Assembly (NCBI GenBank): GCA_029975525.1
Contig: JARKOX010000197.1
Coordinates: 1 to 35,528, forward strand
DNA length: 35,528 nt
DNA from: Prolixibacteraceae bacterium
Lineage (GTDB): Bacteria; Bacteroidota; Bacteroidia; Bacteroidales; Prolixibacteraceae
Reading direction: 5' to 3'
The position numbers and the translations under genes were made by a program. The notes beneath the pieces were generated by a model that saw only the letters and a program-made list of their open reading frames with translations, ran no database searches and was not told where the DNA came from. Positions 3,755-25,779 of the stretch are shown here, in pieces (the stretch's first letter is position 1; each line of letters begins with the position of its first letter).

Positions 3755-6700
3755 TTACTGCACTCCTGAAATCAAAACCGGGCCAAACAGTCCCGATGGT
3801 TGCAGCGGGCTGTCGGCTTTGTATGGATTAACCGGACACCATGTTTTTCGCTGTTCAGCCGGTAAATTCAGATCACCAATCAACCGGTTTACCCACGTGT
3901 TGACCACCTCGATTTGCAGGTCGTTTTCACCGGTTTTCACAAAAGAGGTGATGTCGAGTTGATAGGGAGCCGTCCACAAACCACCAACGTAGTTGCCGTT
4001 GACTGAAACTTTGGCCATGGCTGTGAATCCACCCAGGTCAATCATCACGCGCTGTCCCAGGGGGAGCACTGGCAGCGTAAATTTATTTGTATAAAACGCT
4101 GTTCCGGAATAATATTTAATCCGTTCGTCGGTCGAGGTAGTCCAGTCCTGAAGCGTCTCGAAGACGATCGGTTGTTCGGGGCCCCGCTGAGCCGCATCAA
4201 ACTGAACAGTCCACGGGCCTTTCACCTCGGCCAGAAGGTCGGGATTTGGATAATTGGCTTCCAGTTCCGTTGTTTTTGAGGGGCCGGCCTGGTGACGAAA
4301 AACAACGAATACGCTTTCGTAGGGAGCCAGTTTCAGCGGGACGGCGGTGGTGTTTTCTTTCTGTTCATAGGCGGGCAGCTGGCGTATCGATCCGGTGGTG
4401 GCTTCCCAAAGTTCGGGTTGCAGCCCTTTTACCCGGAACTCGGGAGTTACCAGCCGGGTTTCACCGGTCTGGTTGGTGATAAAGTAAAGCTCGCCGTTGG
4501 GCATCGTGCGGTGGCCGTAATGAATGGTACGGTCTTCGGGCAGTTTGCAGTCGGGCACACAGTTGATTTGTGAGAATGCTTCTTCCATCCTCATCCCGTT
4601 CAGGATCATCCCTTTCCCGAATTTGCGCGATTTGATGGTGGTGCCATCCACGTCACCCCACAACTCGGCGGCCAGCTGCTGCACCTGCTGATCGGCAGCC
4701 GGCTGATTCTGCAAACTGGGCGAACGTTGAGGGGCCGGTCCCATGATCACGGCGCCATCATTTACAAGCTGCTTAATTTTAGCCAGCAGTTCCGGACGCA
4801 TCGTTTCCAGTTTGGGAAGCACCATGATCCGGTATTGGGTTCCGTGCGGCAGGGTAATCAATCCATCCTTCACGGTCATGTATTTTTCGATCACTTCGGC
4901 ATTCATGTAATCGAACTGGTAGCCTACCGGAAGGGCCGGATCAACGATCCCGGTCATCTTCGGGGCATCTTCGCCGATAAAATAGGCCACATCGGCCACG
5001 TTTAAGCCTTGCTGAAGCATGTAGTTGGTCCGTTTCAGGTACGTGGTATACACGTCCATCTGCGTGAACCAGGTGTTTTTGCGGTTAAATTCGTTACCAA
5101 ACCAAGCGTTCACTCCCGGATTTTTATCTTCGTAGGGTTGAGAAATGTAAACATGTAAAAGCGTGTTGTTGATTCCTTCAGCAAAGAAACGGTCACCCCG
5201 CTGTTTGATCACGCCTGGGTAACGGGCAAACGGAGCACCGGCGCAGGTATTCGATTCGGCCGAGATCTTATTCTTTCCGTAGATATGGCCGCACGAAGTA
5301 GCCGCCCGGTTTTCGATATCGCCCAGCTCTCCTTCGCTCCAGAACTCCCCGCCAATCTCGTCTGATTGTCCGCCGTACATCAGAAACTCGCTCGGGAATC
5401 CCCAGTGCCCGTAACATTCGAGCCAGGTCCGCAGCCCGTGCCGATGACTGATGTCACGTAATCCGCCCACATAATCGTAGGCGACTTTGTCGGCCACCAT
5501 GCGGCGCATATCCCAGAGAAAACGATCTGATTCCAACTGGCTTCCCACCACATATCCCTGGTAAACCGGCAAAAATGGAAGGGCACTGTATCCAAAACGT
5601 TGCTCAAACTCTGCCAGAAAATCATCGGTAAAATTCTGCCCTCCGGTTTCATAGCTATCCTGAACGACCACTTTAAAGGTTTTCCGATCAGCTTCCGGAA
5701 TTCGTTTTAAAACTTCACCAATGTACCCCGTAAAATGTTTTTCCACGTGCGCTTTGCTCATTTTGTCCACCTCAAATCCAGTGGATTCGGGTGAGGCGGG
5801 ACCGTTCTTGGTCCCGGTGGGGGTCATCCCGGTACGCAGGACCATCCATTCGCCTTCGGGAACTTCCCAGGTCAGGGTCCCATCGGACGAAACATTCTTG
5901 GAAAGATCGATCACTTTTGTGCCGTCAATCACCATCGACAGGTCGGCAGGTTCGGGTTGTGGTGCCCATTGATACTCGTGCCAGTAAGGCAGGGGCGTCG
6001 GGTGCATTTTGGCCAGCGTTTTTTCGGCATAGCGCTCCACCCGGGGTGATGCAGACAGACGAACTTCCGCCAACCCGGTTCCTGTTTGGGCATTCTTCAC
6101 CATCAGCCGGAAGGAGGTTGCTGTGGTTTCCGGGAAAGAGATCACCACGGGGGCGTAGGGAACAAAACCTACGTTTAGCGCCGGGTTCGACCGGTTTATC
6201 TGGAATTCGGCAAGCGTGCGATACGTGCCGTCGGCATTTTTGACCTGTAGTACCGCCGGAGCGCCCAAGGGTTTTTCGGTCGTCTGCAACGTCAGACTCC
6301 TTGCGGTAAACGGCGCCTTTGCTTCCAGATCCAGGATAAACTCCGCTCCCCCGGGAAAGGAGATCCCGGTTTGCGCATTCCCGTCCAACACACTGGCCAA
6401 TCCGGCCAGCTGGGGCTGCGAAGATATTTTACTGTTGGTTTGATTCAGCATCTGTTGGTCTTCCCGGGGAACCGGCCAGGCAATCACTTTGACATCCTGA
6501 AAAAGTTCGGCGGGCTTCTCCAGTTTTTGAGTCAGCTGCTGCGGCCCTTTTACCCGGAGTTCGGAGGCGGTGAGGAAGCGCATCGCTTCGTTTCCGCTCA
6601 CCCACGGCCCCCCGGATTGGCTCCAGCCCGGCGAATTGAAAATGCCTATCTCGATGTTCAGCTCCGTGGCGGTCTTCAAGGCCGCGTGAAGGATTTCCCA

Positions 6701-6994
6701 CCATTCCGGACTCAACATCTTCACTTTCCCATACGGAACGTCGTCCAACCCGATATTTCCGATGAAGGCGCGGTTAATGCCGGCCTGCTTCATCGATTTA
6801 AGGTCGTTGATCACACCTTCTTTCGAGATATTGTCGGAAATCCAATACCAGTAAACACTGGTCTGAATCGAATCGGGAGGTGTCATGAAGCCGCTTTCCA
6901 GGGCCTGGTCCGAAACTTTTTCATTGTTCGGTACGCAGGCCATCAGCAGAGCTACCAAAAAAAGGCAGGTTGTCAGGTTGATTAAAAATTTCAT
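3755..6994 (-). CDS. GH106 alpha-L-rhamnosidase (lipoprotein)
   Basis: The 1079-residue product would remove terminal alpha-L-rhamnose from oligosaccharides, retaining GH106-type architecture. The signal MKFLINLTTCLFLVALLMAC ends in a lipobox Cys (C20), so it is lipid-anchored. GH106 hallmarks are the N-terminal VYWYWISDNISKEG (47-60), DLKSMKQAGI and FNSPGWSQSGGPW (119-131). Also seen are VVVQDSYETGG (E449), WLECYGHWGFPSEF (E526) and ISAESNTCAG (E580). E449 and E580 lie 131 residues apart, close to the spacing I recall for the catalytic pair of characterised BT0986, and I take them as catalytic. The C-terminal ~150 residues form a GH2-like sugar-binding beta-sandwich (GTAFYTNKF, VSVNGNYVGGLWTAPYQLDIT). 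It lies 30 bp after the second GH71/99-like gene. Its GC looks higher than that of the sigma/SusC end of the locus. Confidence 0.92.
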   Translation of the reverse strand: MKFLINLTTCLFLVALLMACVPNNEKVSDQALESGFMTPPDSIQTSVYWYWISDNISKEGVINDLKSMKQAGINRAFIGNIGLDDVPYGKVKMLSPEWWEILHAALKTATELNIEIGIFNSPGWSQSGGPWVSGNEAMRFLTASELRVKGPQQLTQKLEKPAELFQDVKVIAWPVPREDQQMLNQTNSKISSQPQLAGLASVLDGNAQTGISFPGGAEFILDLEAKAPFTARSLTLQTTEKPLGAPAVLQVKNADGTYRTLAEFQINRSNPALNVGFVPYAPVVISFPETTATSFRLMVKNAQTGTGLAEVRLSASPRVERYAEKTLAKMHPTPLPYWHEYQWAPQPEPADLSMVIDGTKVIDLSKNVSSDGTLTWEVPEGEWMVLRTGMTPTGTKNGPASPESTGFEVDKMSKAHVEKHFTGYIGEVLKRIPEADRKTFKVVVQDSYETGGQNFTDDFLAEFEQRFGYSALPFLPVYQGYVVGSQLESDRFLWDMRRMVADKVAYDYVGGLRDISHRHGLRTWLECYGHWGFPSEFLMYGGQSDEIGGEFWSEGELGDIENRAATSCGHIYGKNKISAESNTCAGAPFARYPGVIKQRGDRFFAEGINNTLLHVYISQPYEDKNPGVNAWFGNEFNRKNTWFTQMDVYTTYLKRTNYMLQQGLNVADVAYFIGEDAPKMTGIVDPALPVGYQFDYMNAEVIEKYMTVKDGLITLPHGTQYRIMVLPKLETMRPELLAKIKQLVNDGAVIMGPAPQRSPSLQNQPAADQQVQQLAAELWGDVDGTTIKSRKFGKGMILNGMRMEEAFSQINCVPDCKLPEDRTIHYGHRTMPNGELYFITNQTGETRLVTPEFRVKGLQPELWEATTGSIRQLPAYEQKENTTAVPLKLAPYESVFVVFRHQAGPSKTTELEANYPNPDLLAEVKGPWTVQFDAAQRGPEQPIVFETLQDWTTSTDERIKYYSGTAFYTNKFTLPVLPLGQRVMIDLGGFTAMAKVSVNGNYVGGLWTAPYQLDITSFVKTGENDLQIEVVNTWVNRLIGDLNLPAEQRKTWCPVNPYKADSPLQPSGLFGPVLISGVQ

Positions 6995-7024: not shown

Positions 7025-8839
7025 TTAGTTGTTCTCGTTAAATACAAAATTGAAACGCCCTCCGGGAGCGGTATCTCCATTGATGTAAAAATCCATGATA
7101 TTACCATTTTCCTGCATATTGTCGTTCCATTTGAATTCGATATTTATCGCTTTCCTGTCCGATTGGAGTATCGTTCTGGGTATTTCCAAATCGAATTCAC
7201 AGGCATTGGTGGCCATCCTGATTCGGCCGGCAGGTTCCCATTCCCAGCGATTTCCGACATTCTTTTCGATCACAGTCTGACGTCCGTTGGGACTCGATCG
7301 ATTCACCACAAAATCGTACCCGTTCCATCCGGTCGACCGGTTTCGGTCCACATCGATGAAAAGCAACATCCAGTTGCGGTCGGTGGCCGGAGTCAGCGCT
7401 GAAGCCGTTTCGACATGGAAATAAACGAACTCATCATCGCGGGCGACTTTAGCGCCGACAATGTCGTTTCTTCCGGTTGAATTGCGGTAATACTGATCGT
7501 ATCGTCCACGGTGATTCCGATGCATCGTATTTCCCCGGTAATGCACAAAACTTGGTTGAACATTGTTCCAGTCTTCAGTTTTACCGATTCGGACAGTTTT
7601 CGGTGCCGAAACCTTCTCCGGTTCAGCCATTCCTTTAAATTTCCGAACCTGATCAATCAGTTGCAAATAATACACATTGCCCTTGTCGCCCCAGCCTTTA
7701 TTGGGCTCAATGTCGCGGCTGCGATCCCAGTCGAACTGATCGACAAACGAGAACGGCTTTCCGGTCCAACCATCTTTCGGGAGCCATTGCCCTGCAATAA
7801 ATTCATTCCAACCGGTAACAAAAACCAGCTCAGGATCAAGTTCGAATGCCCTCTCCCATTGTTCCTGAAAATTCCATCCGTAGAGATAACCGTCAATCCG
7901 TGGATCGAATCCGTTTCGTTGTGAAAAACTTCGGCTATACGACCCGGACAAATTGAATGCGCTACAATGCCCTTTGGTCTCCGGACTTGCATTCTGGGCA
8001 ATTCCCACGGTCACCTGTTCAAATTTTCCATCCGCACTTTTCACATAGCCGTGCTGAGGATAATTTTCGAGCCAACCCCACTGATCATTACGCTTTGGAC
8101 CATTCACGTAATCGGGTTGCCCCGGTCGGAAAGTAAAAAAATTAGCGATTTCACGATCTTCCCCGGAGTCAGTCAAATTGTCGGGATAACCCATGATGCA
8201 TGGTTTTCCTTTCCAGTAGAACCAAAGATTTTTGTACCGGCCGGGCTTGTATACATCGCGATACAACTGTCGTAAGGAAACCAGAGAATGCGGAGCCGGC
8301 CCGAAAGGAAGCATGTATGCAATTTTGGGGACATTCACTCCGTCGCTTTGTGCCTGGTTCCAGGTTTTCAAAAGCGCTTCGTACGATTCCTGCCAGGTGA
8401 GGCTTCCGTTGGTGCAATCGAAAAATACAGCATCAACTCCGGCGTCGGCCAGCATTTCAGCATGTTTTCGCAAAACCCACGGATCGGTGGTTTTGTAATA
8501 ACCCAGCAAAGGTTGTTCCCAGTAAAAAAAGCCAGGCTGTTTGGTTCCCCAGGCCGGATGGTGATAATCCTTCATTGCTTCAGGATATTTCCGGACTATT
8601 TCAGTAATATTTTTAACCTGGTAAGTGGTATCGTCGTTTCCTTGATGCCAGGTCCAGTAAAACATGGCCACAAACTTGTCTTTTCTCTTTTCGCCAGCCT
8701 CGCGGTATTCGCGCACCCGACGGCCAAGCGCATCGGTAGCCGCCCAATGATCGCTAACGACTGGCTGAGCATTTAACTGATAGAAACACCAATTGATCAG
8801 GAATACTCCAAGGATTATTGAATGCAAAACTCGATTCAT
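7025..8839 (-). CDS. Secreted GH71/GH99-like glycoside hydrolase with C-terminal CBM9-like domain (copy B)
   Basis: The 604-residue product has a cleavable signal (MNRVLHSIILGVFLINWCFYQLNAQ, cut near A24). The TIM-barrel-like domain is at about 30-400. Candidate catalytic regions are MLADAGVDAVFFDCTN (D141) and VTGWNEFIAGQW (E346), matching D167 and E428 of copy A. The C-terminal CBM9-like sandwich (about 410-600) shares NWMLLFIDVDRNRSTGWNGYDF and NGDTAPGGRFNF with the paralogue. It is about 90 residues shorter than copy A, which has longer loops. It sits between the DUF5722-like gene (54-bp gap) and GH106. Two divergent copies flanking GH106 suggest two related linkages in one glycan. The family assignment at superfamily level is good; no activity is assigned. 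Confidence 0.78.
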   Translation of the reverse strand: MNRVLHSIILGVFLINWCFYQLNAQPVVSDHWAATDALGRRVREYREAGEKRKDKFVAMFYWTWHQGNDDTTYQVKNITEIVRKYPEAMKDYHHPAWGTKQPGFFYWEQPLLGYYKTTDPWVLRKHAEMLADAGVDAVFFDCTNGSLTWQESYEALLKTWNQAQSDGVNVPKIAYMLPFGPAPHSLVSLRQLYRDVYKPGRYKNLWFYWKGKPCIMGYPDNLTDSGEDREIANFFTFRPGQPDYVNGPKRNDQWGWLENYPQHGYVKSADGKFEQVTVGIAQNASPETKGHCSAFNLSGSYSRSFSQRNGFDPRIDGYLYGWNFQEQWERAFELDPELVFVTGWNEFIAGQWLPKDGWTGKPFSFVDQFDWDRSRDIEPNKGWGDKGNVYYLQLIDQVRKFKGMAEPEKVSAPKTVRIGKTEDWNNVQPSFVHYRGNTMHRNHRGRYDQYYRNSTGRNDIVGAKVARDDEFVYFHVETASALTPATDRNWMLLFIDVDRNRSTGWNGYDFVVNRSSPNGRQTVIEKNVGNRWEWEPAGRIRMATNACEFDLEIPRTILQSDRKAINIEFKWNDNMQENGNIMDFYINGDTAPGGRFNFVFNENN

Positions 8840-8893: not shown

Positions 8894-11071
8894 TCATTCC
8901 TGCACCGAATGAATAATCTCATTCCAGTTATTGATTCCAATAACCGATTTATACGGATCGAAAATGCGGTCTTCCTGGTCGGTGTCGGCAGCCTGATAAA
9001 CAAACCAAACAGGTTTTCTTCCCCCCGGATCAGCCGAATCATCGGGGAAGCGGCGCAAACCTATTCGCAAACCATCTTCCATTCGGTTGTCGATCCAATT
9101 GTGCCATTGAAAAGCATCGATTCCATCCAGGGTCTTCAGTTTCTTCCAGGTGTAAGCAAATCCGGCCGCCTGTTCTTTCAAATCCTGATCGCTGTATGAC
9201 TTTGAATTGGTCCCGTTTTCCGACAGCCAAACCGTGCGTTTCTGGGTATTTTTATATCTATTTTCAGGCTTCTTGATCCACGCATCCAGTACTTCCAGAT
9301 TTTTAAAGGTGATCAATGGCGTATTCATCGAAAAAACGGCGCGCACATCGTTCCATGTTTTGGGTTCGAACAGATTTTCAGGATAAGGATGATATGCCAG
9401 CGCCCACTGAAAATCACCTTCAGCCTTGCAATAATCCTGAAGTGCTGAGAGCATATCTTTGGTAGAATAGTATTTCGATTCGACAGCCGAAGTCCAGGAA
9501 TGCGTAAACGAAGCGAAAACCTCACTGTTTGCATCGTACTTTCGGGCCAAATTATAGCAAAGCCTCATCGATTTGTAGTAAGTATCAAGATAAACCAGCA
9601 TTGGAGTATTTCCCATGTTGGTCCAGGTCAGCCCGGCGTCTACTTCGTTGTGCATAATCCAATGATGTATTCTTCCATAGCTGTTGTCGGCGCGGCAATA
9701 CCTGTTTGCAAGAAAATCGAGCGCGGCCGCGTAGCAATTGAAACTGGCAGCATTGGTCATGTTGGGCATGGTGTAAATACCCTCGGAAGTATAATCGGGG
9801 TGTTGCAGCAACTTTCCAATCTCCGGATCAGCGCACTGCGATGCCTTTTGCACCAGTATAATTGCAGCAACAACTATGTTTTTGGAGAATGCAGTCTGAA
9901 AAGTTTTATCGAGGGCGGCTACTTTCGCCTGATCGAAATAATAAGTTTTACCGCCGTAGGTATGTTCAATCGCGTTCGCTCTGGAATTGAGGTACATAAA
10001 ATCAGTAAAAGCAACATTCACCGTTGCACTGCTAATTTGCAGGTCGTCGAGGTCGGTTTGGAAACCACGACTGGCTCCGTAGCCGCCTAATCCTTTGCGT
10101 CCGGTAGGTTTTTGAGCGGGAAGATTCCGGGAAGCCGAGATCTCGTCGGCATAGCGAGCATGCGAAACAACCTCATCTGTTGTCGATCCGGCCTTGATAA
10201 TTAACCATTTTGACAAAGCCCGGTCGTATTTATACCCGTCGCGTGTAACAAAACGCTCGACGACTACTGAGAATGAAGGCGAGTTCAGTGAAGTAACATT
10301 CTGAAATTTTGCAGTTTGCGTTAACTGGTTGTATGGAGTTACTTCGGCAAGGCTGAAGCTTCCGTTTCCTGAATAATTCCCCTTGATGCCGATACTCGCT
10401 GCTTCTACCTTAACCTCGGTGATCTGAGAATTGTAACCAGTTGACAAATATTTTTTAAGACCTGTTTCCAATAATAAATCGGCAGCAATTTTGTCTTCCC
10501 TCGCTTTTGCCTGAGCAATTTCTTCAGCATTTCGGGCCCTCAATTGCATATTTCTGACTTTAACGGTTATGCCCGCCTCCGTTCCAAAATCGAGGCGCAT
10601 AAAATCTCCGGTCTTTCCCCAGCTATATTTCCGGATATACTCGCCGAGATCGATTGAATACACACTCCAACCTGTTGATGCCAAAACCGCAGAGCCTTTG
10701 CACGAACGATCTTCTGAAATTGGCGCACCTAAAAATACCTGAAGAAAACCGAGACTTTTTGTACTTTGATATTCAAACGAAAGCACGATATTTTCGGAAG
10801 AATTCAATTTATAAAGTGGTTCAATCAGGATGTAAGGATCGGTCCCATTGGTCGTCAGGACATACTCGTATGCACCCGATGATGTTACTGAAAGTTGGTT
10901 TGCCGACGATTGCTGAAACTTCAGATATGTTATTTTTTCGGCAGGAACAACTTCCGGAGTCATTGAATTATCCTTTTTACAGGAAAGCCCCGGCGATACA
11001 TTAATCAGCATGAGTGCCGCCACAAAAAGGGTATTTAGCCTGCTCATGCCGAATCTCAGTTCTCTGTTCAT
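8894..11071 (-). CDS. DUF5722-like putative glycoside hydrolase lipoprotein with N-terminal beta-sandwich
   Basis: The product has 725 residues. A lipoprotein signal ends at PGLSC (C31); M9 (position 11047) is an equally good start. Residues about 46-182 form a beta-rich domain (KITYLKFQQ..., VLSFEYQSTKS, GDFMRLDFGT, VKVRNMQLR) that resembles the domain inserted in SusD2. Residues about 200-720 look like DUF5722: KGLGGYGASRGF, then IHHWIMHNEVDAG with NE at 475-476, and TVWLSENGTNS with E618. An NE motif about 140 residues before a strand-end E is the usual acid-base/nucleophile arrangement of clan GH-A retaining hydrolases, so I infer a TIM-barrel glycosidase. The substrate is unknown; PUL context suggests a linkage in the same rhamnose-containing glycan. 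The DUF5722 label is recalled from family style. Confidence 0.72.
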   Translation of the reverse strand: MNRELRFGMSRLNTLFVAALMLINVSPGLSCKKDNSMTPEVVPAEKITYLKFQQSSANQLSVTSSGAYEYVLTTNGTDPYILIEPLYKLNSSENIVLSFEYQSTKSLGFLQVFLGAPISEDRSCKGSAVLASTGWSVYSIDLGEYIRKYSWGKTGDFMRLDFGTEAGITVKVRNMQLRARNAEEIAQAKAREDKIAADLLLETGLKKYLSTGYNSQITEVKVEAASIGIKGNYSGNGSFSLAEVTPYNQLTQTAKFQNVTSLNSPSFSVVVERFVTRDGYKYDRALSKWLIIKAGSTTDEVVSHARYADEISASRNLPAQKPTGRKGLGGYGASRGFQTDLDDLQISSATVNVAFTDFMYLNSRANAIEHTYGGKTYYFDQAKVAALDKTFQTAFSKNIVVAAIILVQKASQCADPEIGKLLQHPDYTSEGIYTMPNMTNAASFNCYAAALDFLANRYCRADNSYGRIHHWIMHNEVDAGLTWTNMGNTPMLVYLDTYYKSMRLCYNLARKYDANSEVFASFTHSWTSAVESKYYSTKDMLSALQDYCKAEGDFQWALAYHPYPENLFEPKTWNDVRAVFSMNTPLITFKNLEVLDAWIKKPENRYKNTQKRTVWLSENGTNSKSYSDQDLKEQAAGFAYTWKKLKTLDGIDAFQWHNWIDNRMEDGLRIGLRRFPDDSADPGGRKPVWFVYQAADTDQEDRIFDPYKSVIGINNWNEIIHSVQE

Positions 11072-11163: not shown

Positions 11164-12156
11164 CTACGGATTAATCTGGCGGTTTAGTTCATATATCTTT
11201 TTCCTGATCTCGGTTAATGAACCAACAATTATAAAATACTCGTATTCGTAGACCGAATTTTTATACAGAATTTCTTTTTTGATCGGAGCAATGTAGGAGG
11301 TTGAACCATCCAGAGCTTCTTCATCGGGCACGCCGGACATTCCGGCCAGAAAATAATCGCATTTGGGATTGTAAACACCCATTCCCCAAAGTTTGTCGTC
11401 AACAAAAGCCATCCAATGTTCCGATACGTTTTGATAGGTTCCCCAGAAGCCACTCGAAAGGTTGACCACTTCCGGATTCGACATGGTTTCATTCGAAAAA
11501 GGGGAATTTCCCAGATAAGTATATAACTTCTTCAATGCCGATATTGGATAAACAGCAGGCAATTCCTGGTCGTTTAAAATGCTGTCACCATAGATTTTGT
11601 CGGTCCGGTGACAAGTCAGCCGGTTTTTTACTTTCAACACGTTTCCCTGCAGGGTAGTCCATTGTTCCATTTCGGCTTCAGCCGGACGGTTTTTCATATC
11701 CCACTGCATGGGAATACATTTTACATAGAGTTCATTTTCTCCTTTTTTGAAGTCCAGAATACGGGCGCGATTTCCAAAGGCATCGCCCACCTGGATCGGG
11801 TTCCAGCTCCAAGGTGACCACGAAGGCGATTGTCCTTCGTTTTGCCGGTTCACCCGTACTCCCGCATAATAAGATTGTTGTATGTACCGACCTTCGTCAT
11901 GAATATTAACGATATTTCGGTCAGATCCGGCTAATGACAGGTAGCAAATAGCTCCGCCGCGAGTCAAATCCAGTTTCAGGGTCAGAACACCGTTGCTGAT
12001 GGTTGGGGTACTACTTCCGACATGAACGGGCTCTGCCTCTTTTTTCTGGCATTGACCGAATGTGGTAAAGGAAAGACCCAGTAAAAGTATGGAGACCTTT
12101 CTCCGGCTCCTGGAGATTAAATCAGATTTGAAATTATTTATTGAAATCATGTACAT
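11164..12156 (-). CDS. Lipoprotein of unknown function in PUL, beta-rich
   Basis: The product has 330 residues. A basic N-terminus and hydrophobic stretch (SRRKVSILLLGLSFTTFGQC) end in a lipobox with C36. The mature part is rich in predicted strands and aromatic residues: GGAICYLSLAGSDRNIVN, RYIQQSYYAGVRVNR, SWSPWSWNPIQVGD, EHWMAFVDDKLWGMGVYN and VYEYEYFIIVG. The GGAI-YL...NIVN...GRYIQQSYY pattern is well formed and resembles conserved Bacteroidota exported proteins, perhaps with a galactose-mutarotase-like sandwich fold. I do not recognise a named family. Context, first gene after the SusCD block and before the DUF5722-like enzyme, suggests a glycan-binding or -cleaving role. The start is either M1 or M3; no ribosome-binding site decides it. 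Confidence 0.7.
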   Translation of the reverse strand: MYMISINNFKSDLISRSRRKVSILLLGLSFTTFGQCQKKEAEPVHVGSSTPTISNGVLTLKLDLTRGGAICYLSLAGSDRNIVNIHDEGRYIQQSYYAGVRVNRQNEGQSPSWSPWSWNPIQVGDAFGNRARILDFKKGENELYVKCIPMQWDMKNRPAEAEMEQWTTLQGNVLKVKNRLTCHRTDKIYGDSILNDQELPAVYPISALKKLYTYLGNSPFSNETMSNPEVVNLSSGFWGTYQNVSEHWMAFVDDKLWGMGVYNPKCDYFLAGMSGVPDEEALDGSTSYIAPIKKEILYKNSVYEYEYFIIVGSLTEIRKKIYELNRQINP

Positions 12157-12391: not shown

Positions 12392-14674
12392 TTACCACCC
12401 CGGATTCTGCCAGCTGCTTCCGGTATACGTATTCATTTTTGATACTTCAACCTGATCGATCGGATACATCAGATATTTATCGGTATTGGTACCCCGATCT
12501 TTTAGTTTGATGCGGGTGTAGGTATAGCCGGCACCATTTTTTGTGATTTTCATACCGGTAACAAACCCATCGGTCTGATTAAGGATTTTCCAGCGGCGGA
12601 CATCAAAGAACCGATGTTCTTCGAAAGCCAGTTCTACCTGGCGCTCGTTGCGATAACGTACCTGGAACTGTTCTTTTGTCAAACCGGCAGGCAGGGGAGG
12701 CATATTAACCCGGGCACGAATGGCATTTACAGCGTCTCGGGCCGACATCGAGCTACCGCCTACTTTAGAAGTCACAGCAGCATCAGGTCCTGCCGATTGG
12801 TAAGCTGCTTCTGCAAAATTCAGGTACAGTTCGCCTAACCGGAAAATTTTCATCAGACCATCCTGATCCACATTCACTCCCGATTTATAATTGTTGAATT
12901 TACGCAGGTAATACCCGGTACGTGTATTCCTGGTTTCCGAAATACGATCGGATATTTCACAATTTCCGCCTACAAAAGTTTCAACCAGAGTCGGAGCTGC
13001 CGGCGGAGTGAACGATTCAATTCTGAAATTGCGGATGGTTATTTCATATCCGGTTCCATTGGTCACATCAAACCGCAGGAAGTGGTTCTCCGGCTTTGCA
13101 CCGCCATTGGCATTCACGCCAAAGCCCCATTGGCTAATCGCCGTGCTGAGATCGTATTCAAATCTTGTCCATTCCGAGGCTTGGTCAATCCGAATATTCT
13201 GACCGGTTTCTACTCCTCCCTGAGGGCCACCAGCCACACAGAAGAAAAACTCCGCATCGGAAATCGACTTATTGCTTTTGTATTCAAAGGTAATCAGTCG
13301 CTTCGACCCTGCGCTTAGTGGACGTGTCAGGGTCGTCGTATGGATCCAGGGATCACCACCGGTGGTTGTCAGGGTGACTTCTTCTCCGTTTGTGGTGGCC
13401 GTCACATTGTTCGTAACTGAAGTAAAACTCAGCGGGAATAAATCTTTATCCACTTTTCCTGTGCTCAGCGAGCGCGGTGATCCATTGTAATAGATCGAAG
13501 CATAGAATCGCGGATCACGCCCCACGTAAGGGTTAGAGGGATCGTAGCCCGAATTTGTATTCACAATCGGCTGTAAATGATTGGCATCAGCATACCCCAG
13601 GACAGGCATTTCGCCGGTAGCCTGCATTCCATAGGCATCAACCAGTTCCTGGGATGGTCCGGCTCCGGCCTTTTCCATTCCGACCGTAATAGGAGTTCCG
13701 GCCCATTTCCAGACATTGGTGCGCTGTGCTGTCGTTTCAAAGATGGTTTCCTTGTCAACCGACCGGCTGGGATCGGAACGATAAATGAAATAATAGGCAT
13801 ACGCATTCTGGGCGATGTCGGCTTCGGGAGTAATATCGAAAAGCTTAAAGCCGTGCAAAAGACATTGATCAAGTGCTTCCTTGGTGATCTCGGTTGCTTT
13901 TTGCCAGTTATACTTGCTGTTGCTGGTATTCCAAAGCGGACTGGCAGCATATAATGCTGCCTGCGATTTTACGGCATAGGCAAATGCCCGGGTAATATGT
14001 CCCCGTTCATTATCGCTGATGTTCCAGCGAAAACCGATCGTTGGAGTACTGCTTTCGGGCAGGGCCAATGCAGCATCACAGTCGGCCAGAATAAAATCGA
14101 CACATTCTTCAAAAGCGGCACGCTTATCTTTCGAAAAGTCGTGAGTTACACTGTATGGTTTTGAAATAATCGGAACTCCACCGAATCGCTTAATCAGTTG
14201 AAGATAATAGAATGCCCGTAAGGTAAGGACTTCTCCAATCCATCCGTTCTTCTCATCCTGATCGATACGTGCGGTAGCCACGGCAGGGTCATTGATACTT
14301 GCCAGGAACGTATTACATTTCCGTATTCCTTCGAAATAATACGACCACGGATCGATGCTGCCACCAGCCAGCGGATTGTTCGATGCAGAGGTGCGATTGT
14401 TATACCAGTCATTGATTAAGCCGCTGACTCCGTCGCTGGCATCGTGAGCCTCATCGCTGAATGATGCCAAGGGAGTATTCCCGTATGAAAAACCAACCTG
14501 TGGAATATAATCACGACAGCGGTCGAAATAATTTCGTGAAGTATTATATTCTTTGAATATGTCGTTCAGCGTCAATCGTCCGTCCGACGGAAGATCCAGG
14601 TCGGCACAGGAAGCCAGTCCCAAAAATACGGCGACAACCATTAATATTTTGAAAATATAGCTTTTCATGCTCAA
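12392..14674 (-). CDS. SusD/RagB-family glycan-binding lipoprotein with inserted beta-sandwich domain (SusD2)
   Basis: The product has 760 residues against about 500-620 for most SusD proteins. The lipobox LASC gives C23. SusD features are the N-terminal TPR-like region with WIGEVLTLRAFYYLQLIKRFGGVP (144-168), ALYAASPLWN, RDPRFYASIYYNG (387-399), and the C-terminal RLGELYLNFAEAAY, RNERQVELAFEEHRFFDVRRWK and SSWQNPGW. Residues about 411-557 are an extra module between RDPRFYAS and TRTGYYLRKF, which are normally close together. Its pattern (DPWIHTTTL, ITFEYKSNKS, HFLRFDV, YEITIRNFRIESF) resembles residues 46-182 of the DUF5722-like lipoprotein of the same operon. It would cap the SusC2 transporter on the cell surface. 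The gene begins 5 bp after the susC2 stop codon. Confidence 0.93.
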   Translation of the reverse strand: MSMKSYIFKILMVVAVFLGLASCADLDLPSDGRLTLNDIFKEYNTSRNYFDRCRDYIPQVGFSYGNTPLASFSDEAHDASDGVSGLINDWYNNRTSASNNPLAGGSIDPWSYYFEGIRKCNTFLASINDPAVATARIDQDEKNGWIGEVLTLRAFYYLQLIKRFGGVPIISKPYSVTHDFSKDKRAAFEECVDFILADCDAALALPESSTPTIGFRWNISDNERGHITRAFAYAVKSQAALYAASPLWNTSNSKYNWQKATEITKEALDQCLLHGFKLFDITPEADIAQNAYAYYFIYRSDPSRSVDKETIFETTAQRTNVWKWAGTPITVGMEKAGAGPSQELVDAYGMQATGEMPVLGYADANHLQPIVNTNSGYDPSNPYVGRDPRFYASIYYNGSPRSLSTGKVDKDLFPLSFTSVTNNVTATTNGEEVTLTTTGGDPWIHTTTLTRPLSAGSKRLITFEYKSNKSISDAEFFFCVAGGPQGGVETGQNIRIDQASEWTRFEYDLSTAISQWGFGVNANGGAKPENHFLRFDVTNGTGYEITIRNFRIESFTPPAAPTLVETFVGGNCEISDRISETRNTRTGYYLRKFNNYKSGVNVDQDGLMKIFRLGELYLNFAEAAYQSAGPDAAVTSKVGGSSMSARDAVNAIRARVNMPPLPAGLTKEQFQVRYRNERQVELAFEEHRFFDVRRWKILNQTDGFVTGMKITKNGAGYTYTRIKLKDRGTNTDKYLMYPIDQVEVSKMNTYTGSSWQNPGW

Positions 14675-14679
14675 GAAAT

Positions 14680-17600
14680 TTAAAAGTTAAAATTAAGACC
14701 AAGGTTGTAGACACGATAAGGCTGGAAAGTATTCATTCTGCCTATTTCAGGATCGATATATTTCGATCGCATCTGGTCGATCGTGAACAGGTTCTGGATA
14801 TTGCATGCGATCCGGATTCCTTCCGAATGTATTTTTCGGGTTAAATTTTCGGGTAAATTGTAGGCAATCTCCAGATTCCGTAAACGTAAATAGGAACGAT
14901 CCATTAGGAAGAAATCGTTGTTTACATGATTGGTTGACGGAGAAAGCGACAAGGCCGGGAATGTAATTTTTTCACCGGCTGCATACCGTTCGGGAGTCCA
15001 GGCATTCAGATGAATATCGTTAAACTGTCCCTGGCTTCCATATTCGTAAGCCCCGACGCCGCTCAAAAACGAAGAAGTGTGTTTCACGCTGTGAAGCAAG
15101 AAAGAGAGCTCCCAGCGTTTCCAGGTTAAACCAGCGTTCAGACTGTATTCCTGTTCCGGGAAATAGGCATATCCCATCGGTGCTTGGTCTTTCGCGTCGA
15201 TTATGTGGTCGTTATTCAGGTCCTGATATTTGAAATCGCCAACACGCGGGGTGCCAAACGAGTAAGTAAGACCTGAGCTAGCCAGTTCGTCAGCCGAATT
15301 GAACATCCCATTGCCATTGCTATAGTCGACCCGGTATCCCCAACGTTGACCCACCGGATATCCTTCTGTTCGGTACGGATAAGCATATTCATCCGAAAAA
15401 GGCGATTCATTAATACTAATGACCTTGTTCTTAGCCTGCGTAAAGCTAAATTCAGCAAAAGCCGCAAAGTCTTTAGAAAAATGCTTGTTGAAGGCTAATG
15501 AAAGTTCCAATCCTTTGTTTTCCATCTCCCCATTATTCAACTTAGGGTAATAACCAAGAGGAATACCTTGATATTCCGGAATTTTATACGAGCTGTTCAC
15601 AAGCATATTATTCACCCGATGAGCGAAATAGTCGACCCCGAGGGTAAACATATCCAGGACTCCCAAGTCTAAACCAAGATTCATCTTTTTGATTTTTTCG
15701 GCAGCTAACTCGGGGTTGCCACGTTCGAGTTCAGTCCCGTTCGAACGGATGTTATCCAGGTAAAGGAAACGGGCGCTACCCATCTGGTCGTTGGCCGTAA
15801 TCCCATAGGAAGCCCTTAGTTTTAACAGGCTGATAAAATCAATCTTGAAAAAATCTTCTTTCGAGACCATCCAGCCTGCAGAGATAGCCGGTGTGGCAAT
15901 AAACCGGTGATCCGGGTGAAACTGTTCCGAACCGGAATAGCCAAGGTCTCCCTTCAGGAAGTAACGGTCCTTGTAGCCGTACAACACACTCACACCAAGA
16001 TTCTGGCGTTTGTAGGGCAAAATTGCATTGCTGCTGCCGGTATTTTCTTTTTCCTGTAAAAGGTAATAGGTGTGTGCCGAGGCATCAATCCAGTGATCGC
16101 CAAATCTCCGGTTGTATTCCATGTTGGCAAATAAGTCGAGATAGTAGAAAAAGACTGAGCCCTTGCTATAAGCCAAAGGGGTATTCTCCCAGTTTTTGTA
16201 TTTGGTAAAGTTATCCAGTAAATTATAATCGGATCCTCGAACCACCCGCTGAAAATTCTGAAGCGTGTTGGTTTGATTTCGGACATAGGTCTGGTAAGCC
16301 ATCGCTCCGTTGAGCGATAATCCCTTGGTCAGAAAACTCATGTCAAGGGTTAGCCCGGCCTGTGCAATCACATTGGTTTCGATGATCTGTGAATAGCCTG
16401 AGCGGTTCAGCAAGCCGTACACCGGATTATCTACCCCGTCGATGGTTACCACCTGATTACTCATGTCCGGATTATCTTCGATAATCGGAGATAATGGTCC
16501 ATACATGGTGGGAGGCAGGTTGAATATCTGGCTGTAAATATCCCAGTTCATTCTGGAGCCAGCCTGCATTTCGCGTTTAACACTACCTGCCAGGCGCATA
16601 AACCCCGACACATAATCGTTAAATTTTACATCCATATTGGAGCGGATGTTCACAATGTTCACATGAGGATTGGGGGTATATTTCCGACCTTGCTCATCCG
16701 CGATTTTCATGGGTTCCCCCTGGTTGATAAAATTCAGCTGCGAGAAATATTTGAACTTTTCGGTTCCCCCTGTGACATTAACACCAACCCGTTGTCGCAT
16801 GACAATATCCTTGACGAACATATCGTACCAGTTATTATTTGGATAACCGGAGTTGTCTCCTGCCCTGAAATGATCAATTTCTTCCTGGCTGAATTGGGAA
16901 TAAGGTCCATGCCCGTCGCGCTCACCGGCTTCGTTCCGTAATTCTGCATAGCGTGCTGAATTAATAAATGTCGGGCTTTTGATCATCTGCTGAAACGATT
17001 GATCGGCATAAGCTTCAACCTTTTTCTTCCCGTTAATGCCGCGTTTGGTGGTGATCACCAATGCGCCGTTAGCTCCCTGGATTCCATAAACTGCTGTTGC
17101 CGAAGCATCCTTCAGCACCGATATACTTTCAATTTCCTTCGGTGAAATAAATTCAAAGTATTGTGTAGGGCAAACCACTCCGTCGATGATGACCAGCGGT
17201 TGTGTGCCATTCACGGTTGAAATACCACGAATGGCCTTATTCGTATTCTGATAACCGAAGAAAGTCAGTTCGGAAAGTGCCGATACCGTGCTTAAACCCG
17301 GTAATCGTCCGGCTAGGGTTTCCGAAAGGATATTTTTAGGACTTTTATCCAAAACTGATCCGCTGACCGAGGAAACAGAACCGGTCAAGGATTCCCGGCT
17401 ATAAGAGTCGTATCCCATGTTCACAAAGCCCCCCATGTTGTGCACATCGAATTTCAGGATTATTTTTCCCTGGTTGTTTAACTGATCGGCAGGAATCCGT
17501 TGATTTTGGAACCCTGCAGCCGAAACCGTCACAAAGGAGCTTCCATCATTTACGGTCAGGTTATAAGTCCCGTCTTTGGGTGTGACAAACTGATTCTTAC

Positions 17601-17733
17601 CGAATTCCGATACCAGTAAGGCGCCGGCAACAGGTTGCCCGTATTCGTTAACAACAAGGTTCTTCTCAAAATCCTGTGCATAAAGGTTCAGGCACAGGAG
17701 CAATGAGAGTATGTTGATCAATATGTATTTCAT
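14680..17733 (-). CDS. SusC/RagA-family TonB-dependent outer-membrane transporter without STN domain (SusC2)
   Basis: The frame is open from 17751 (1023 residues), but M7 at 17733 gives a normal signal peptide (MKYILINILSLLLCLNLYAQ), so I use that start (1017 residues). A degenerate carboxypeptidase-regulatory-like domain (VVNEYGQPVAGALLV...GTYNLTV) is followed by the plug (LAGRLPGLS, IRGISTVNGTQPLVIIDGVV, ESISVLKDASATAVYGIQGANGALVITTKRG) and a long beta-barrel. The barrel includes DLGYSGSEQF, ASYGITANDQMG and the C-terminal YRVYNLGLNFNF, which ends in Phe as outer-membrane proteins do. It imports large oligosaccharides with SusD2. It lacks the STN domain and so cannot signal to FecR in the usual way. 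The susD1 stop lies just upstream at 17769. Confidence 0.95.
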   Translation of the reverse strand: MKYILINILSLLLCLNLYAQDFEKNLVVNEYGQPVAGALLVSEFGKNQFVTPKDGTYNLTVNDGSSFVTVSAAGFQNQRIPADQLNNQGKIILKFDVHNMGGFVNMGYDSYSRESLTGSVSSVSGSVLDKSPKNILSETLAGRLPGLSTVSALSELTFFGYQNTNKAIRGISTVNGTQPLVIIDGVVCPTQYFEFISPKEIESISVLKDASATAVYGIQGANGALVITTKRGINGKKKVEAYADQSFQQMIKSPTFINSARYAELRNEAGERDGHGPYSQFSQEEIDHFRAGDNSGYPNNNWYDMFVKDIVMRQRVGVNVTGGTEKFKYFSQLNFINQGEPMKIADEQGRKYTPNPHVNIVNIRSNMDVKFNDYVSGFMRLAGSVKREMQAGSRMNWDIYSQIFNLPPTMYGPLSPIIEDNPDMSNQVVTIDGVDNPVYGLLNRSGYSQIIETNVIAQAGLTLDMSFLTKGLSLNGAMAYQTYVRNQTNTLQNFQRVVRGSDYNLLDNFTKYKNWENTPLAYSKGSVFFYYLDLFANMEYNRRFGDHWIDASAHTYYLLQEKENTGSSNAILPYKRQNLGVSVLYGYKDRYFLKGDLGYSGSEQFHPDHRFIATPAISAGWMVSKEDFFKIDFISLLKLRASYGITANDQMGSARFLYLDNIRSNGTELERGNPELAAEKIKKMNLGLDLGVLDMFTLGVDYFAHRVNNMLVNSSYKIPEYQGIPLGYYPKLNNGEMENKGLELSLAFNKHFSKDFAAFAEFSFTQAKNKVISINESPFSDEYAYPYRTEGYPVGQRWGYRVDYSNGNGMFNSADELASSGLTYSFGTPRVGDFKYQDLNNDHIIDAKDQAPMGYAYFPEQEYSLNAGLTWKRWELSFLLHSVKHTSSFLSGVGAYEYGSQGQFNDIHLNAWTPERYAAGEKITFPALSLSPSTNHVNNDFFLMDRSYLRLRNLEIAYNLPENLTRKIHSEGIRIACNIQNLFTIDQMRSKYIDPEIGRMNTFQPYRVYNLGLNFNF

Positions 17734-17768
17734 ATGCTTATGGATAATCATAATTCTAAATTTTTAAT

Positions 17769-19606: not shown

Positions 19607-22600
19607 TTAGAAAGTCATGTTAACCCCTACCGTGATCATTTTAGTTAATGGATATACAAGGGTTGTATTTTGCTCCGGGTCAACAGTGTTAACGGGTAAT
19701 TTATCCCAGGTAAACAAGTTATTCCCGTTTGTATAGATCCGTACATTTTCTATTCCAACCGGGTTTAGGATTTTTTTAGGCATGTTGTACCCAATTTCCA
19801 CATTCTTTAAGCGCAGGAACGAACGGTCCATGATGAAAAAACTGTTCGATTTTTGACTCACACCTTCAGACATCCCAAGAGCTGGGTACAGAATTTCTTC
19901 GTTGTTGGCATAACGTTCGGGGGTCCAGGCTTTGAAATGCCATTTGCTAAAAAATCCGACCAAACCGAATTCAGTAACTCCCCACCCGTTGTGGGTGACA
20001 CTACTCTGGGCTATACCCGAGAACACAAATGCCATATCGAAATTCTTGTATTTCATTGTTCCTGACAATCCGTAGGAAATGCGGGGAACGGTTGGATTGC
20101 CAATCGGAACCATGTCGCGGTTATTGATTTTTCCGTCCTGGGTAACGTCGACATACTTGAAATCGCCAAGACGAGGCTTTCCTCCAACTTCGTAAAGTGG
20201 CAGATTAGCCAGTTCCTCCGGCGTATTGATGTATCCGTTGCCATTGCTATAATCAATGAGGTATCCGAACCGCTGACCAATACTAAACCCGGTACTTCGG
20301 TATGGATAGGCATAATCTTCTCCGTATTTGACTTCGTCGCTGAACTTTACGATGTTTTTGTTGTAAGTAAAATTTCCTTTGACACTAAACGATAATTCTG
20401 GATTGATGACTTTTAGATAGGCCAACTCGGTTTCCAATCCTTTGTTATCAACAATTCCGATGTTTACTTTTGGAATATTGCTGATGGGCACTCCCTGAAG
20501 TACCGGAATGGTGCTTCTGCTGATGAGAATTTTATCGCGGTGTTCCTGAAAGGCATCCACGGTAAGCGACAGGTTATTCACGATTTTAAGGTCAAATCCG
20601 ACGTTCTTCTTTTCGGCTTTTTCCCATTGCAAACCTTCGTTTCCCATTCTACCCTGATTTACACTCTGCCCCAGGCCAAGACCCGGGAATTCGCCGCCGC
20701 CCATGGTTATGAAACTTTGATAAAGGAATCTGCTGTTGCCTAATTTATCGTTCCCGGTAATCCCGTAGGAAGCCCTAAACTTTAAATGAGTAATCACCGG
20801 GTTTCCTTTTAGGAATCCTTCGTTACTTGCCACCCATCCCAATGAAAAAGCGGGGAACGAACCGAAGCGGTTTTTAGGAGCAAATTGTTCCGAACCGTTG
20901 TATCCAAAGTTAAATTCACCTAAATAGCGGTTATCGTAGTCGTAGGTTAAACGTCCCACATATCCAATCACATTATAAGGCAGGTCGGCACTCCAACCTT
21001 CCCAGTTATCGCGTTGATGCAGGAACATCCCGCTCACATTGTGAAGGCCGAAACTTCGTGCGTAATTCAACGATACCTGATAATTCATGAAATAATAGGT
21101 GTTCATGTTTTTAGACAGTCGGATAGATTTATCCTGATTATCACGGATCGGAGAATATCCTGACTTTTGGGTGGCGTTCCGGGCTACATAAAAAGCATAA
21201 GTATTTAGTGACCTGACTCCCTGGCGGGTGGTAGCTGCATGGCTGTCGAATGCAATCATCCCTTTGGCGCTCAGTCCTTTTGTTATGAAACCTAATCCCC
21301 AGTCGAGAGCTAACGATGAATTCAGAACCGTTGAATATTCCTGACGATAGCCGCGCCGATTAATTTCCCCGTAAGTATTCCGGTCTTGTCCCGATTGGGC
21401 AATAATTTCATTTTCGGGGACACCATATCCGGCCACGGTTACAGGACCCGGATCTGTAGGTGGTGTTCCCCAGGTGTAAGCCATCATATTTTGAACCATA
21501 CCGTTCACATCGCCACCAAATAAGTCGACGGTCTGCGGAGAATTCATTTGTTGCAGATAGGTGGCAATATTCAAAGAAGCCTTCAGGTTTTGTGCAATTT
21601 TATAGTCGATATTGCCTCTGAAATTGTATCTGTCCATGCTATAACTTGGATCATAACCCAGGAAGCTTTTCGGTTCGGTTTTAAAATTTCCGCCCTGTCC
21701 AATATAACCCGCATTGAGGAAGTAGTTAAAGTCTTTTCCGCCACCGTTGAAGTTGGCATTTACACGGGTTTGGGGTGCCCAGTCTCTGAAATAATCGTGA
21801 TAAACATCGCGGTCAGGATAAAATACCGGATCTTCACCACTTTTATACTTGTCAATCATATACTGGGTAAAAGGCATTTCATTTTCGGTCGCATTGGGAT
21901 TTCCGTTGAGAAAAGCCTGATTTCTTAATTCTGCAAATTCCCAGGAATGGATCCGGTCATTATGGACCAGGAATTGCTGAAAACTTTTATCGACGGTAAC
22001 GCTTAGTTCTGATTTTCCTTCCTCGCCGCGGCGTGTGGTAATAAGAATTACGCCGTTTGCCCCGCGCACCCCAAATACGGCGGTGGCCGAAGCATCTTTG
22101 AGGATAGAGATTGAAGCAATTTCGTTAGGATCGAGTTTGTCGATGTTGCTTCTGGGAATCCCATCAATCAGGATCAACGGGGAAGCGTCGTTAAGTGTGC
22201 TGACTCCGCGAAGGTAGAGGTTTACCACATCGTTACCTGGTTGTCCGGACGATTGCATAACGGTGAGACCGGGTAATTGTCCTGCCAGCGCCACAGAAAG
22301 GTTTGGAGCAGAACTTCGTTTCAGATCTTTTGTCATCACGCTCGAAATTGCAGCAGTAACCGACTCTTTCTTTTGAATGCCATAACCTACAGCTACTACT
22401 TCTTCCAAGCCAACCGTTTCTTCTTCCATAATCACCGTAAAGTCGGCCTTATTCCCAATCTGGATTTCCTGGGTTTTCATTCCTACGAAAGAGAATACCA
22501 GTACTTTAGCTTCGCCGGTGTAGATCAGGCGGAAATTCCCGCTGGCATCTGTGATTACACCGAAAGTTGTTCCTTTTATTATCACTGAAGTCCCTGGAAC

Positions 22601-23050
22601 TGGCATGTTTTGTTTGTCCAGAACTTTTCCTGTGATCTCTTTTTTTTGCTCTGCAGGTATGGTTGCCTGAATGACTTCAGTCTCTGGATTTTTCTTGCCA
22701 ATCACAATTTGCCTATCAAAAACAGCAAAGGTATTTCCGGTGGTCTCCAGAACTTTTTCGAGAATTTTTTCAACTGTGAGATTTTCTGCTTTGATGCTGA
22801 TTCTTCGATTTAAATCCAGGGCATCGTCGTAGAAAACAAAAATGAATTCACTTTGCTTTTCAATTTCCTTAATTAACTGTTTGATAGTGGTATTCTGCAA
22901 GTTAAGAGTCAGCTTGGTATTCTGAGAATAACTAACACTGGCACTTACCGTCGCAGTTGTGATGAGCAGAAAAAACAGACATATTTTCATCGTCAGCCAT
23001 AATCTTTCAAAGTGCCGAAATCTCGGCACCCGAAACTTGTTTTTTTTCAT
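19607..23050 (-). CDS. SusC/RagA-family TonB-dependent transporter with N-terminal STN signalling domain (SusC1)
   Basis: The product has 1147 residues. After a basic N-terminus and a hydrophobic signal (about 22-43) comes an STN domain at about 44-118 (LTLNLQNTTIKQLIKEIEKQ, RISIKAENLTVEKILEKVL). A CarboxypepD_reg-like domain follows at about 139-222 (ITGKVLDKQNMPVPGTSVIIKGT). Next come a TonB-box-like segment (EEVVAVGYGIQKKESVT), the plug (LAGQLPGLTV, LRGVSTLNDASPLILIDGIPR, ISILKDASATAVFGVRGANGVILITTRRG) and the barrel ending in TVGVNMTF. STN domains contact the periplasmic part of FecR-type anti-sigma factors, and fecR lies directly upstream, so this transporter is the probable inducer sensor. 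A 173-bp gap holding a hairpin separates it from fecR. Confidence 0.96.
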   Translation of the reverse strand: MKKNKFRVPRFRHFERLWLTMKICLFFLLITTATVSASVSYSQNTKLTLNLQNTTIKQLIKEIEKQSEFIFVFYDDALDLNRRISIKAENLTVEKILEKVLETTGNTFAVFDRQIVIGKKNPETEVIQATIPAEQKKEITGKVLDKQNMPVPGTSVIIKGTTFGVITDASGNFRLIYTGEAKVLVFSFVGMKTQEIQIGNKADFTVIMEEETVGLEEVVAVGYGIQKKESVTAAISSVMTKDLKRSSAPNLSVALAGQLPGLTVMQSSGQPGNDVVNLYLRGVSTLNDASPLILIDGIPRSNIDKLDPNEIASISILKDASATAVFGVRGANGVILITTRRGEEGKSELSVTVDKSFQQFLVHNDRIHSWEFAELRNQAFLNGNPNATENEMPFTQYMIDKYKSGEDPVFYPDRDVYHDYFRDWAPQTRVNANFNGGGKDFNYFLNAGYIGQGGNFKTEPKSFLGYDPSYSMDRYNFRGNIDYKIAQNLKASLNIATYLQQMNSPQTVDLFGGDVNGMVQNMMAYTWGTPPTDPGPVTVAGYGVPENEIIAQSGQDRNTYGEINRRGYRQEYSTVLNSSLALDWGLGFITKGLSAKGMIAFDSHAATTRQGVRSLNTYAFYVARNATQKSGYSPIRDNQDKSIRLSKNMNTYYFMNYQVSLNYARSFGLHNVSGMFLHQRDNWEGWSADLPYNVIGYVGRLTYDYDNRYLGEFNFGYNGSEQFAPKNRFGSFPAFSLGWVASNEGFLKGNPVITHLKFRASYGITGNDKLGNSRFLYQSFITMGGGEFPGLGLGQSVNQGRMGNEGLQWEKAEKKNVGFDLKIVNNLSLTVDAFQEHRDKILISRSTIPVLQGVPISNIPKVNIGIVDNKGLETELAYLKVINPELSFSVKGNFTYNKNIVKFSDEVKYGEDYAYPYRSTGFSIGQRFGYLIDYSNGNGYINTPEELANLPLYEVGGKPRLGDFKYVDVTQDGKINNRDMVPIGNPTVPRISYGLSGTMKYKNFDMAFVFSGIAQSSVTHNGWGVTEFGLVGFFSKWHFKAWTPERYANNEEILYPALGMSEGVSQKSNSFFIMDRSFLRLKNVEIGYNMPKKILNPVGIENVRIYTNGNNLFTWDKLPVNTVDPEQNTTLVYPLTKMITVGVNMTF

Positions 23051-25618: not shown

Positions 25619-25779
25619 CAACTTCTTTGGAATAGCTCTTATGAACACCCATCTGAAAACCCCGGGATTGGTTTGTGAATAAAAACAGCAGATTATGAGC
25701 CAGTTTCATGGTGTCTGTTGTTCTGTCCCGGTGGACTCGGGTTGCTAAAATCACTATCTTTCCCGCAATTTTTGGCGTA

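Follow-up and report, generated by a model that had tools for sequence, protein, structure and literature searches.

SusD lids close over SusC and bind sugar, and the surface lipoproteins at the SusE position are thought to have a glycan-binding domain at the C-terminus. As far as the accessible parts of the reports go, the closest described systems with a nested binding module are PUL surface enzymes. A CBM58 interrupts the fold of the outer-membrane amylase SusG (PMC7848910), and two CBM4 modules likewise interrupt that of the GH10 xylanase Pm25 (PMC11267923). CBM112, a beta-sandwich found in Bacteroides GH26 mannanases, is described in the portion of its source seen here as binding beta-mannan (PMC13357471).

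The locus described here differs in its host protein: the putative binding module is nested in a SusD lid, and a homologue forms the N-terminal domain of an enzyme-like lipoprotein encoded in the same PUL.

The locus and its genes

The window, i.e. the whole 35,528-nt stretch of DNA analysed, contains a PUL in which two susCD pairs stand in tandem, together with downstream genes, all on the minus strand (Table 1). Upstream of the susCD pairs lie a FecR gene and, from reading of the sequence, a probable sigma factor gene. The reading frame of SusD2 opens with a TTG, and the ATG at 14668 (residue 3) is the likelier start. SusD2 matched the Pfam families SusD_RagB (PF07980, E=5.4e-40, 138.3 bits against a cut-off of 23.1, in two stretches, the best at 575-760) and SusD-like_3 (PF14322, E=1.2e-14, 55.4 bits against a cut-off of 27, residues 84-213). 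The SusC-type TonB-dependent receptor SusC2 (Plug) adjoins it, as expected of a SusD/RagB member, and its nearest solved structure by sequence is 3qnk (BF3747). Lipobox-like motifs read from the sequence, LASC in SusD2 and GLSC in the DUF5722 protein, are consistent with the lipid anchors which the earlier note on this DNA had predicted for both proteins.

Table 1 Features of the PUL in the window
Feature	Position	Strand	Remark
SusD2, SusD/RagB-family lipoprotein, lid of SusC2	12392..14674	-	760 aa from TTG
SusD2 core before insert, residues 1-410	13445..14674	-	Alignment to SusD1
Insert of SusD2 (module A), residues 411-557	13004..13444	-	Predicted CBM-like beta-sandwich; insertion relative to SusD1
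SusD2 core after insert, residues 558-760	12395..13003	-	SusD_RagB 575-760
SusC2, TonB-dependent partner of SusD2	14680..17751	-	Pfam Plug E=4.7e-13
SusD1, insert-free paralogue, 605 codons	17769..19586	-	Pfam SusD_RagB E=1.6e-50
SusC1	19607..23050	-	TIGR04056 E=6.5e-255
330-aa putative lipoprotein between SusD2 and DUF5722 gene	11164..12156	-	No family match
DUF5722 enzyme-like lipoprotein, 725 aa	8894..11071	-	Pfam DUF5722 E=2e-128, residues 319-719
Module A as N-terminal domain of DUF5722 protein, residues 46-182	10526..10936	-	BLASTP to SusD2 insert
DUF5722 protein middle domain, residues 183-315	10127..10525	-	Without Pfam match
GH99-like protein	7025..8839	-	Uninterrupted in window; relatives in four other loci with nested module B
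GH106 alpha-L-rhamnosidase-family protein	3755..6994	-	Pfam E=1.3e-224
Second GH99-like protein	1508..3589	-	Weak Pfam GH99 E=0.012, below cut-off

The 330-aa lipoprotein has relatives that are 69-71 % identical, encoded downstream of SusD2 in the related loci L030 and L031 (loci are numbered with an L, genomes with a G). The two GH99-like paralogues (1508-3589 and 7025-8839) have at best a Pfam match below the cut-off, and by eye their C-terminal third resembles a separate binding-type domain. Divergent from the PUL, on the plus strand, are genes for a Peptidase C39-type ABC exporter (25708-27987) and, after it, an HlyD-type adaptor-like protein recognized from its sequence (28008-29369); a gene for an elongation factor G-type protein (30638-32755, plus strand) lies close to the exporter genes.

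The DUF5722 (PF18989) profile scored 429.1 bits against a cut-off of 30.5. The protein was modelled with a pLDDT of 87.1 over its whole length, and its main domain was predicted to be a clan GH-A-type barrel (GH39 5jvk, Z 23.8 in VIA); the VIA list for this model was filled by barrel matches. Residues N475-E476 and E618, invariant in 14 DUF5722 sequences, are likely candidates for the acid/base and the nucleophile. No papers on DUF5722 were found in the open-licence literature, and the domain (window 8915-10117, minus strand) may, judging from the model, represent an undescribed glycoside hydrolase family.

The insert in SusD2 and its homologue in the enzyme

Most of the length difference between SusD2 (760 codons) and SusD1 (605 codons) is due to one insertion at about residues 411-557. 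The earlier note had proposed that these residues break into a stretch which runs on without a gap in SusD1, and the alignment confirmed it; the solved SusDs 3qnk and 5ck1 also aligned unbroken across the insertion point with an insert-free orthologue (L076). Neither the insert nor the N-terminal domain of the DUF5722 protein matched a Pfam family at E up to 10. The resemblance claimed between the insert and residues 46-182 of the enzyme was well above background: BLASTP gave E=4e-10 with 25 % identity over 137 columns, and the Smith-Waterman score was 119, compared to a mean of 28.3 (sd 4.6) for shuffled sequences, none of 2000 scoring as high. With the full-length proteins as BLASTP input the single strong match was the insert to residues 55-179 of the DUF5722 protein, and when the whole genome was searched with the insert, the one place found apart from its own was the enzyme domain (E=1.3e-6). 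The four motif pairs quoted in the earlier note aligned as it had described. As judged from these sequence comparisons, the SusD2 insert and the DUF5722 N-terminal domain are homologous, and we refer to both as module A.

AlphaFold2 models were built from alignments of proteins of the window and related loci (36 sequences for SusD2 and 14 for the enzyme), and the two window copies of module A were compared by strand order and sequence. Both segments were predicted with the same strand order and one short helix each. The block-mean pLDDT of module A was 63-94 in SusD2 and 84-93 over residues 51-180 of the enzyme. The SusD2 model as a whole was weak (mean pLDDT 67.4, pTM 0.58), with pLDDT <50 at model residues 379-403 and 560-604, flanking the insert. 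In a Foldseek search with this model SusDs came on top and CBM29 entries made up 11 of the 50 matches listed; the best of these, 1gwl (rank 38, E=5.8e-5, TM by target 0.60), superposed loosely (rmsd 5.2) and thus indicates the fold class only. With VIA, CBM30 2c24 was placed on model residues 408-555, i.e. 410-557 of the reading frame (Z 11.0, rmsd 3.0, 139 residues aligned). The models and the CBM29 and CBM30 matches thus support the shared carbohydrate-binding-type beta-sandwich that had been presumed, and glycan binding by module A would be in keeping with this fold class.

At the sequence level, a comparison of module A with a CBM29 profile gave an hhalign probability of 55.8 over 24 columns, apparently off the structural register. 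In a PDB profile search with module A the best chain was unrelated (E=0.31) and CBM30 was absent; no relatives of module A or of module B, described below, were found in the PDB by sequence. A Pfam scan of 63 copies of module A gave stray weak matches only, the best being CBM_4_9 (0.0097) in one copy. A correspondence of R534-x-D536 with R112-x-D114 of CBM29-2 had been guessed by eye and was discarded, since the motif was paired with a different region by hhalign, HMMER and MAFFT.

Occurrence and history of module A

A match to the SusD2 insert at E<=0.001 was found in 17 of 140 genomes of the family. When 5048 open reading frames from the window and from loci L030-L126 were searched with a module-A profile, 70 domain rows resulted, and seven of these were dropped before the module tree was calculated: L030 twice, L031 and L035, which duplicate other loci, and three weak L121 rows. 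The remaining 63 copies consisted of 27 in SusD proteins, 24 at DUF5722 N-termini, 7 at the C-terminus of lipoprotein-like proteins, 2 in NAGPA-type proteins and 3 in tandem. The tandem copies belong to a 1317-aa protein with Listeria-Bacteroides repeats and a Por secretion tail (L042:9382-13332, plus strand). In L039 (10603-15472, minus strand) two NAGPA-type proteins have module A after Big_2 repeats, in front of the NAGPA domain or perhaps within it.

The seven lipoprotein-like proteins are encoded near susCD (L038, L040, L041, L056, L060, L095 and L106), and their N-termini are BACON, BT_3987_N (which we take to be DUF1735), DUF4959 or DUF4998. Placement at the C-terminus after Ig-like, DUF1735 or BACON N-termini, as in surface glycan-binding proteins (SGBPs), was seen in these seven relatives and not in the window copies. 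DUF1735 and BACON have been proposed as spacers for carbohydrate-related C-termini, according to the available text of one report (PMC11216935). Insert-bearing loci L056, L059, L060, L064 and L066 have an SGBP-like gene beside susD2, and the idea that the insert stands in for a missing SGBP was therefore abandoned. In many insert-free loci the gene beside susD2 encodes, by eye, a GH99-like N-terminus.

Several positions are common to the lid and enzyme copies: D441-P442/D78-P79, Y465/Y101, W502/W135 and R534-x-D536/R159-x-D161 are conserved in 92-100 % of the 27 SusD and 24 enzyme copies. Others are class-typical. E475, C479, G482 and T490 are found more often in the copies of SusD proteins and SGBPs than in those of the enzymes; at position 475/111, E475 occurs in 52 % of the SusD copies compared to Q111 in 92 % of the enzyme copies, and at position 506/139, E506 occurs in 78 % of the former and S139 in 83 % of the latter. 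Because of these differences, the ligand of the two classes need not be the same.

The module tree placed 23 of the 24 enzyme copies together with two tandem copies on one side of a split (support 86/99, unstarred), opposite the copies of SusD, SGBP and NAGPA-type proteins and a single long enzyme row; a clade of all 24 enzyme domains was not rejected (p=0.43). The SGBP copies of L038, L056 and L060, which are SusE-position lipoproteins, joined the group of SusD inserts to which the window copy belongs (99/96), and this group without the SGBP copies was likewise not rejected (p=0.11). The earlier note had read the shared module as domain exchange inside one PUL. The sharing itself is borne out, whereas a sister relation of the two window copies was rejected: forcing it made the tree 113 log units worse (AU test, p-AU 2.6e-7). 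One might suspect that susD2 and the DUF5722 gene of this PUL exchanged the module recently, as the genes are 1.3 kb apart with module A in common, and SusD inserts of L032, L035 and L036 are nearer to the window enzyme domain (33-40 %) than to the window SusD2 insert (31 %). The rejected sister relation and the grouping of nearly all enzyme domains make such an event extremely improbable. As the window copies are not sisters and SusD and enzyme copies group separately, the sharing between enzyme and SusD is old, with the nearer traffic running between SusD2 and SGBPs.

Tested on the 27 SusD rows by themselves, a single origin of the SusD inserts was rejected (p=0.0013); with the addition of the three SGBP copies that fall among them, which would then descend from the same origin, it was not (p=0.19). 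Independent insertions of module A, which had also been considered, are therefore not claimed, and gains of the module are indistinguishable from losses.

The insertion loop in the SusD2 family

The insertion loop lies between YYNG and VETFVGG and is short in insert-free relatives. A contig scan with eight SusD2 orthologues, seven of them with module A, gave at least 77 loci. Six of 82 SusD candidates (L104, L113, L122, L123, L124 and L126) were broken or without the flanking motif and were dropped before the core tree was calculated. The spacing from DPRF to T-x-TGYY, taken from two counts with slightly different starting points, was about 37-56 residues when the loop was empty and about 176-207 when it was occupied. 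Among the 76 usable proteins the loop was empty in 45, held module A in 27 and held the unrelated module B in 4; these are counts among the matches listed for module-A-biased queries and not natural frequencies. The SusD2 C-terminal core was found at E<=1e-45 in one of 395 genomes of a class sample, the window's own, among the matches listed, for which up to eight candidates per genome were scored. The core before the insert is 79-80 % identical in L003 and L004.

A quick tree of the SusD2 core, with the insert columns excluded, required a minimum of 15 state changes, compared to a mean of 25.9 for shuffled states, none of 200 shuffles being as low. If only the starred branches are counted, 8 (empty), 7 (A) and 3 (B) are still required. 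One group with a support of 98 spans all three states, L036 having module A, L075 an empty loop and L045 and L102 module B, and its cores of different state are 84.6-89.5 % identical globally and 86-92 % locally. At the DNA level, L036 and L075 are 87.9 % identical in one flank (1162 nt) and 85.4 % in the other (581 nt), between which there are 476 nt in L036 and 38 nt in L075. A single metagenome-assembled genome, G025 (83 % complete, 6 % contamination), contains both L036 and L140, and L075 equals L140 in the core; L036 and L140 could represent two paralogues or two mixed strains. Taken together, the loop of SusD2 appears to behave as a cassette site, which is empty or filled with module A or with the unrelated module B.

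Module B

A module-B profile found four SusD2 proteins, GH99-like proteins in L032, L045, L082 and L102, and in addition seven proteins with a length of about 490 aa, among them a cut one (354 aa). Three of the latter were scanned and showed weak GH130 similarity, below the cut-off. In all four GH99-like proteins module B was nested inside the GH99-like domain, whose flanks corresponded to residues 1/4-223/239 before and 222/227-598/603 after the module in comparison with the window relative. A family search gave two further SusD2 proteins with module B (L134 and L137).

Between SusD and GH99 copies, module B showed 48-62 % identity overall; when the two copies of one locus were compared, the value was 56-58 % in L045, L082 and L102 alike. 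In a tree, the SusD and GH99 copies were separated together from the 490-aa proteins by a starred branch (98/98); the SusD copies as one clade were borderline (p=0.064). A GH99-like protein with module B occurred in three of the four loci with module B in SusD2, the fourth (L071) being a 5-kb contig. Sharing between lid and enzyme inside one locus is clearer for module B than for module A. Since module B is common to SusD2 and the GH99-like protein, both lid inserts also occur on enzyme-like proteins.

It might be argued that module A is a structural decoration without a ligand of its own, i.e. a tolerated insertion, given how many relatives (45 of 76) do without any insert. We regard this as very unlikely: D441, P442, Y465, W502, R534 and D536 are conserved in 96-100 % of the 27 SusD inserts, and the loop is filled by either of two modules that are unrelated but similar in size, both of them found on enzyme-like proteins as well.

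The two modules were also combined within loci. In L032, SusD2 has module A and the GH99-like protein has module B, and in L045 and L102, SusD2 with module B lies beside a DUF5722 protein with module A. The DUF5722 gene was found in five of seven family genomes having SusD2 with module A and in all four having SusD2 with module B, so the lid module and the DUF5722 domain are not matched one-to-one; as the gene was not found in the other two of the seven, the pair of lid and enzyme is not obligatory. These combinations bear on the possibility that module A is a protein-docking domain which joins the lid, the enzyme and the SusE-position lipoprotein in one outer-membrane complex. Its recurrence in proteins expected together at the surface would fit such a role, and the accessible part of the CBM112 paper proposes a role for an internal CBM in placing the enzyme within the utilisome (PMC13357471). 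Docking seems unlikely nevertheless, since the fold matches of module A are CBMs, two of seven genomes with module A in the lid gave no DUF5722 gene, and in L045 and L102 the enzyme's module A accompanies a lid with module B.

Discussion

The cassette site, together with both cassettes being common to enzyme-like proteins, is a stronger result than the exchange within one PUL from which the analysis started. The explanation we consider probable is that modules A and B are exchangeable glycan-binding plug-ins, used on the importer lid and on the enzymes that feed the importer. SusD2 would then be a SusC lid with a plug-in site, in which the opened loop houses the independently folded, CBM-like module A. 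The module would add a second glycan-binding surface to the lid and keep a polysaccharide chain near the mouth of the importer, and the module A of the enzyme would keep the same or a related chain near the cutting site, after which the products could be handed over at the membrane. The modules of SGBPs and enzymes in such loci may together keep one polysaccharide chain at the surface. While the homology, the insertion, the fold class, the recurrence and the alternation of states were computed, the glycan binding, the ligand and the hand-over are what we infer from them.

A cassette site would enable the lid to gain, lose or change a recognition unit with the SusC-capping core unchanged. There is perhaps an even chance that the SusD2 lid is, more generally, a recognition chassis, whose loop slot exchanges unrelated putative glycan-binding modules from a pool common to enzymes and SGBPs in loci of this type. 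If so, the substrate range of an importer could shift by a swap of the lid cassette, with the SusC contact untouched. The close relatives with an empty, A or B loop provide a ready natural experiment on the part of the lid in the choice of what is imported, and a swap of the loop only would separate the effect of the lid, which is otherwise confounded by a change of the whole SusCD pair.

Of the solved structures, 3qnk (BF3747) has the SusD core fold next to SusC as in SusD2, and the nested domain is absent at the loop. CBM29 of Piromyces equi (1gwk/1gwl) and CBM30 (2c24) have the fold predicted for module A, and the sequence relation to CBM29 is unconvincing. Among described modules, CBM112, compared here with module A by description only, is likewise found nested within a surface protein of a PUL, and it recurs C-terminally in putative SGBPs encoded downstream of susD; in the available text its hosts are GH26, CE7 and GH5 proteins, SGBPs and proteins of no known function, and SusD is not named there (PMC13357471). 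In a Maribacter GH16, as with module A, a nested domain is common to an enzyme and a surface glycan-binding protein, the insert being related to SGBP-B of Bacteroides fluxus (29 % over 290 aa); the host, as far as that source is accessible, is not a SusD (PMC11345257). CBM58 in SusG and the CBM4 modules in Pm25 interrupt the fold of their host as module A does in SusD2, but the hosts are enzymes, and the parts of these reports at hand do not describe an alternation of unrelated modules at one site (PMC7848910, PMC11267923). No description of a SusD lid with a nested binding module was found in the accessible text of the open-licence literature. Binding modules nested in PUL surface enzymes are thus known already, and what appears to be new in this locus is their nesting in a SusD lid.
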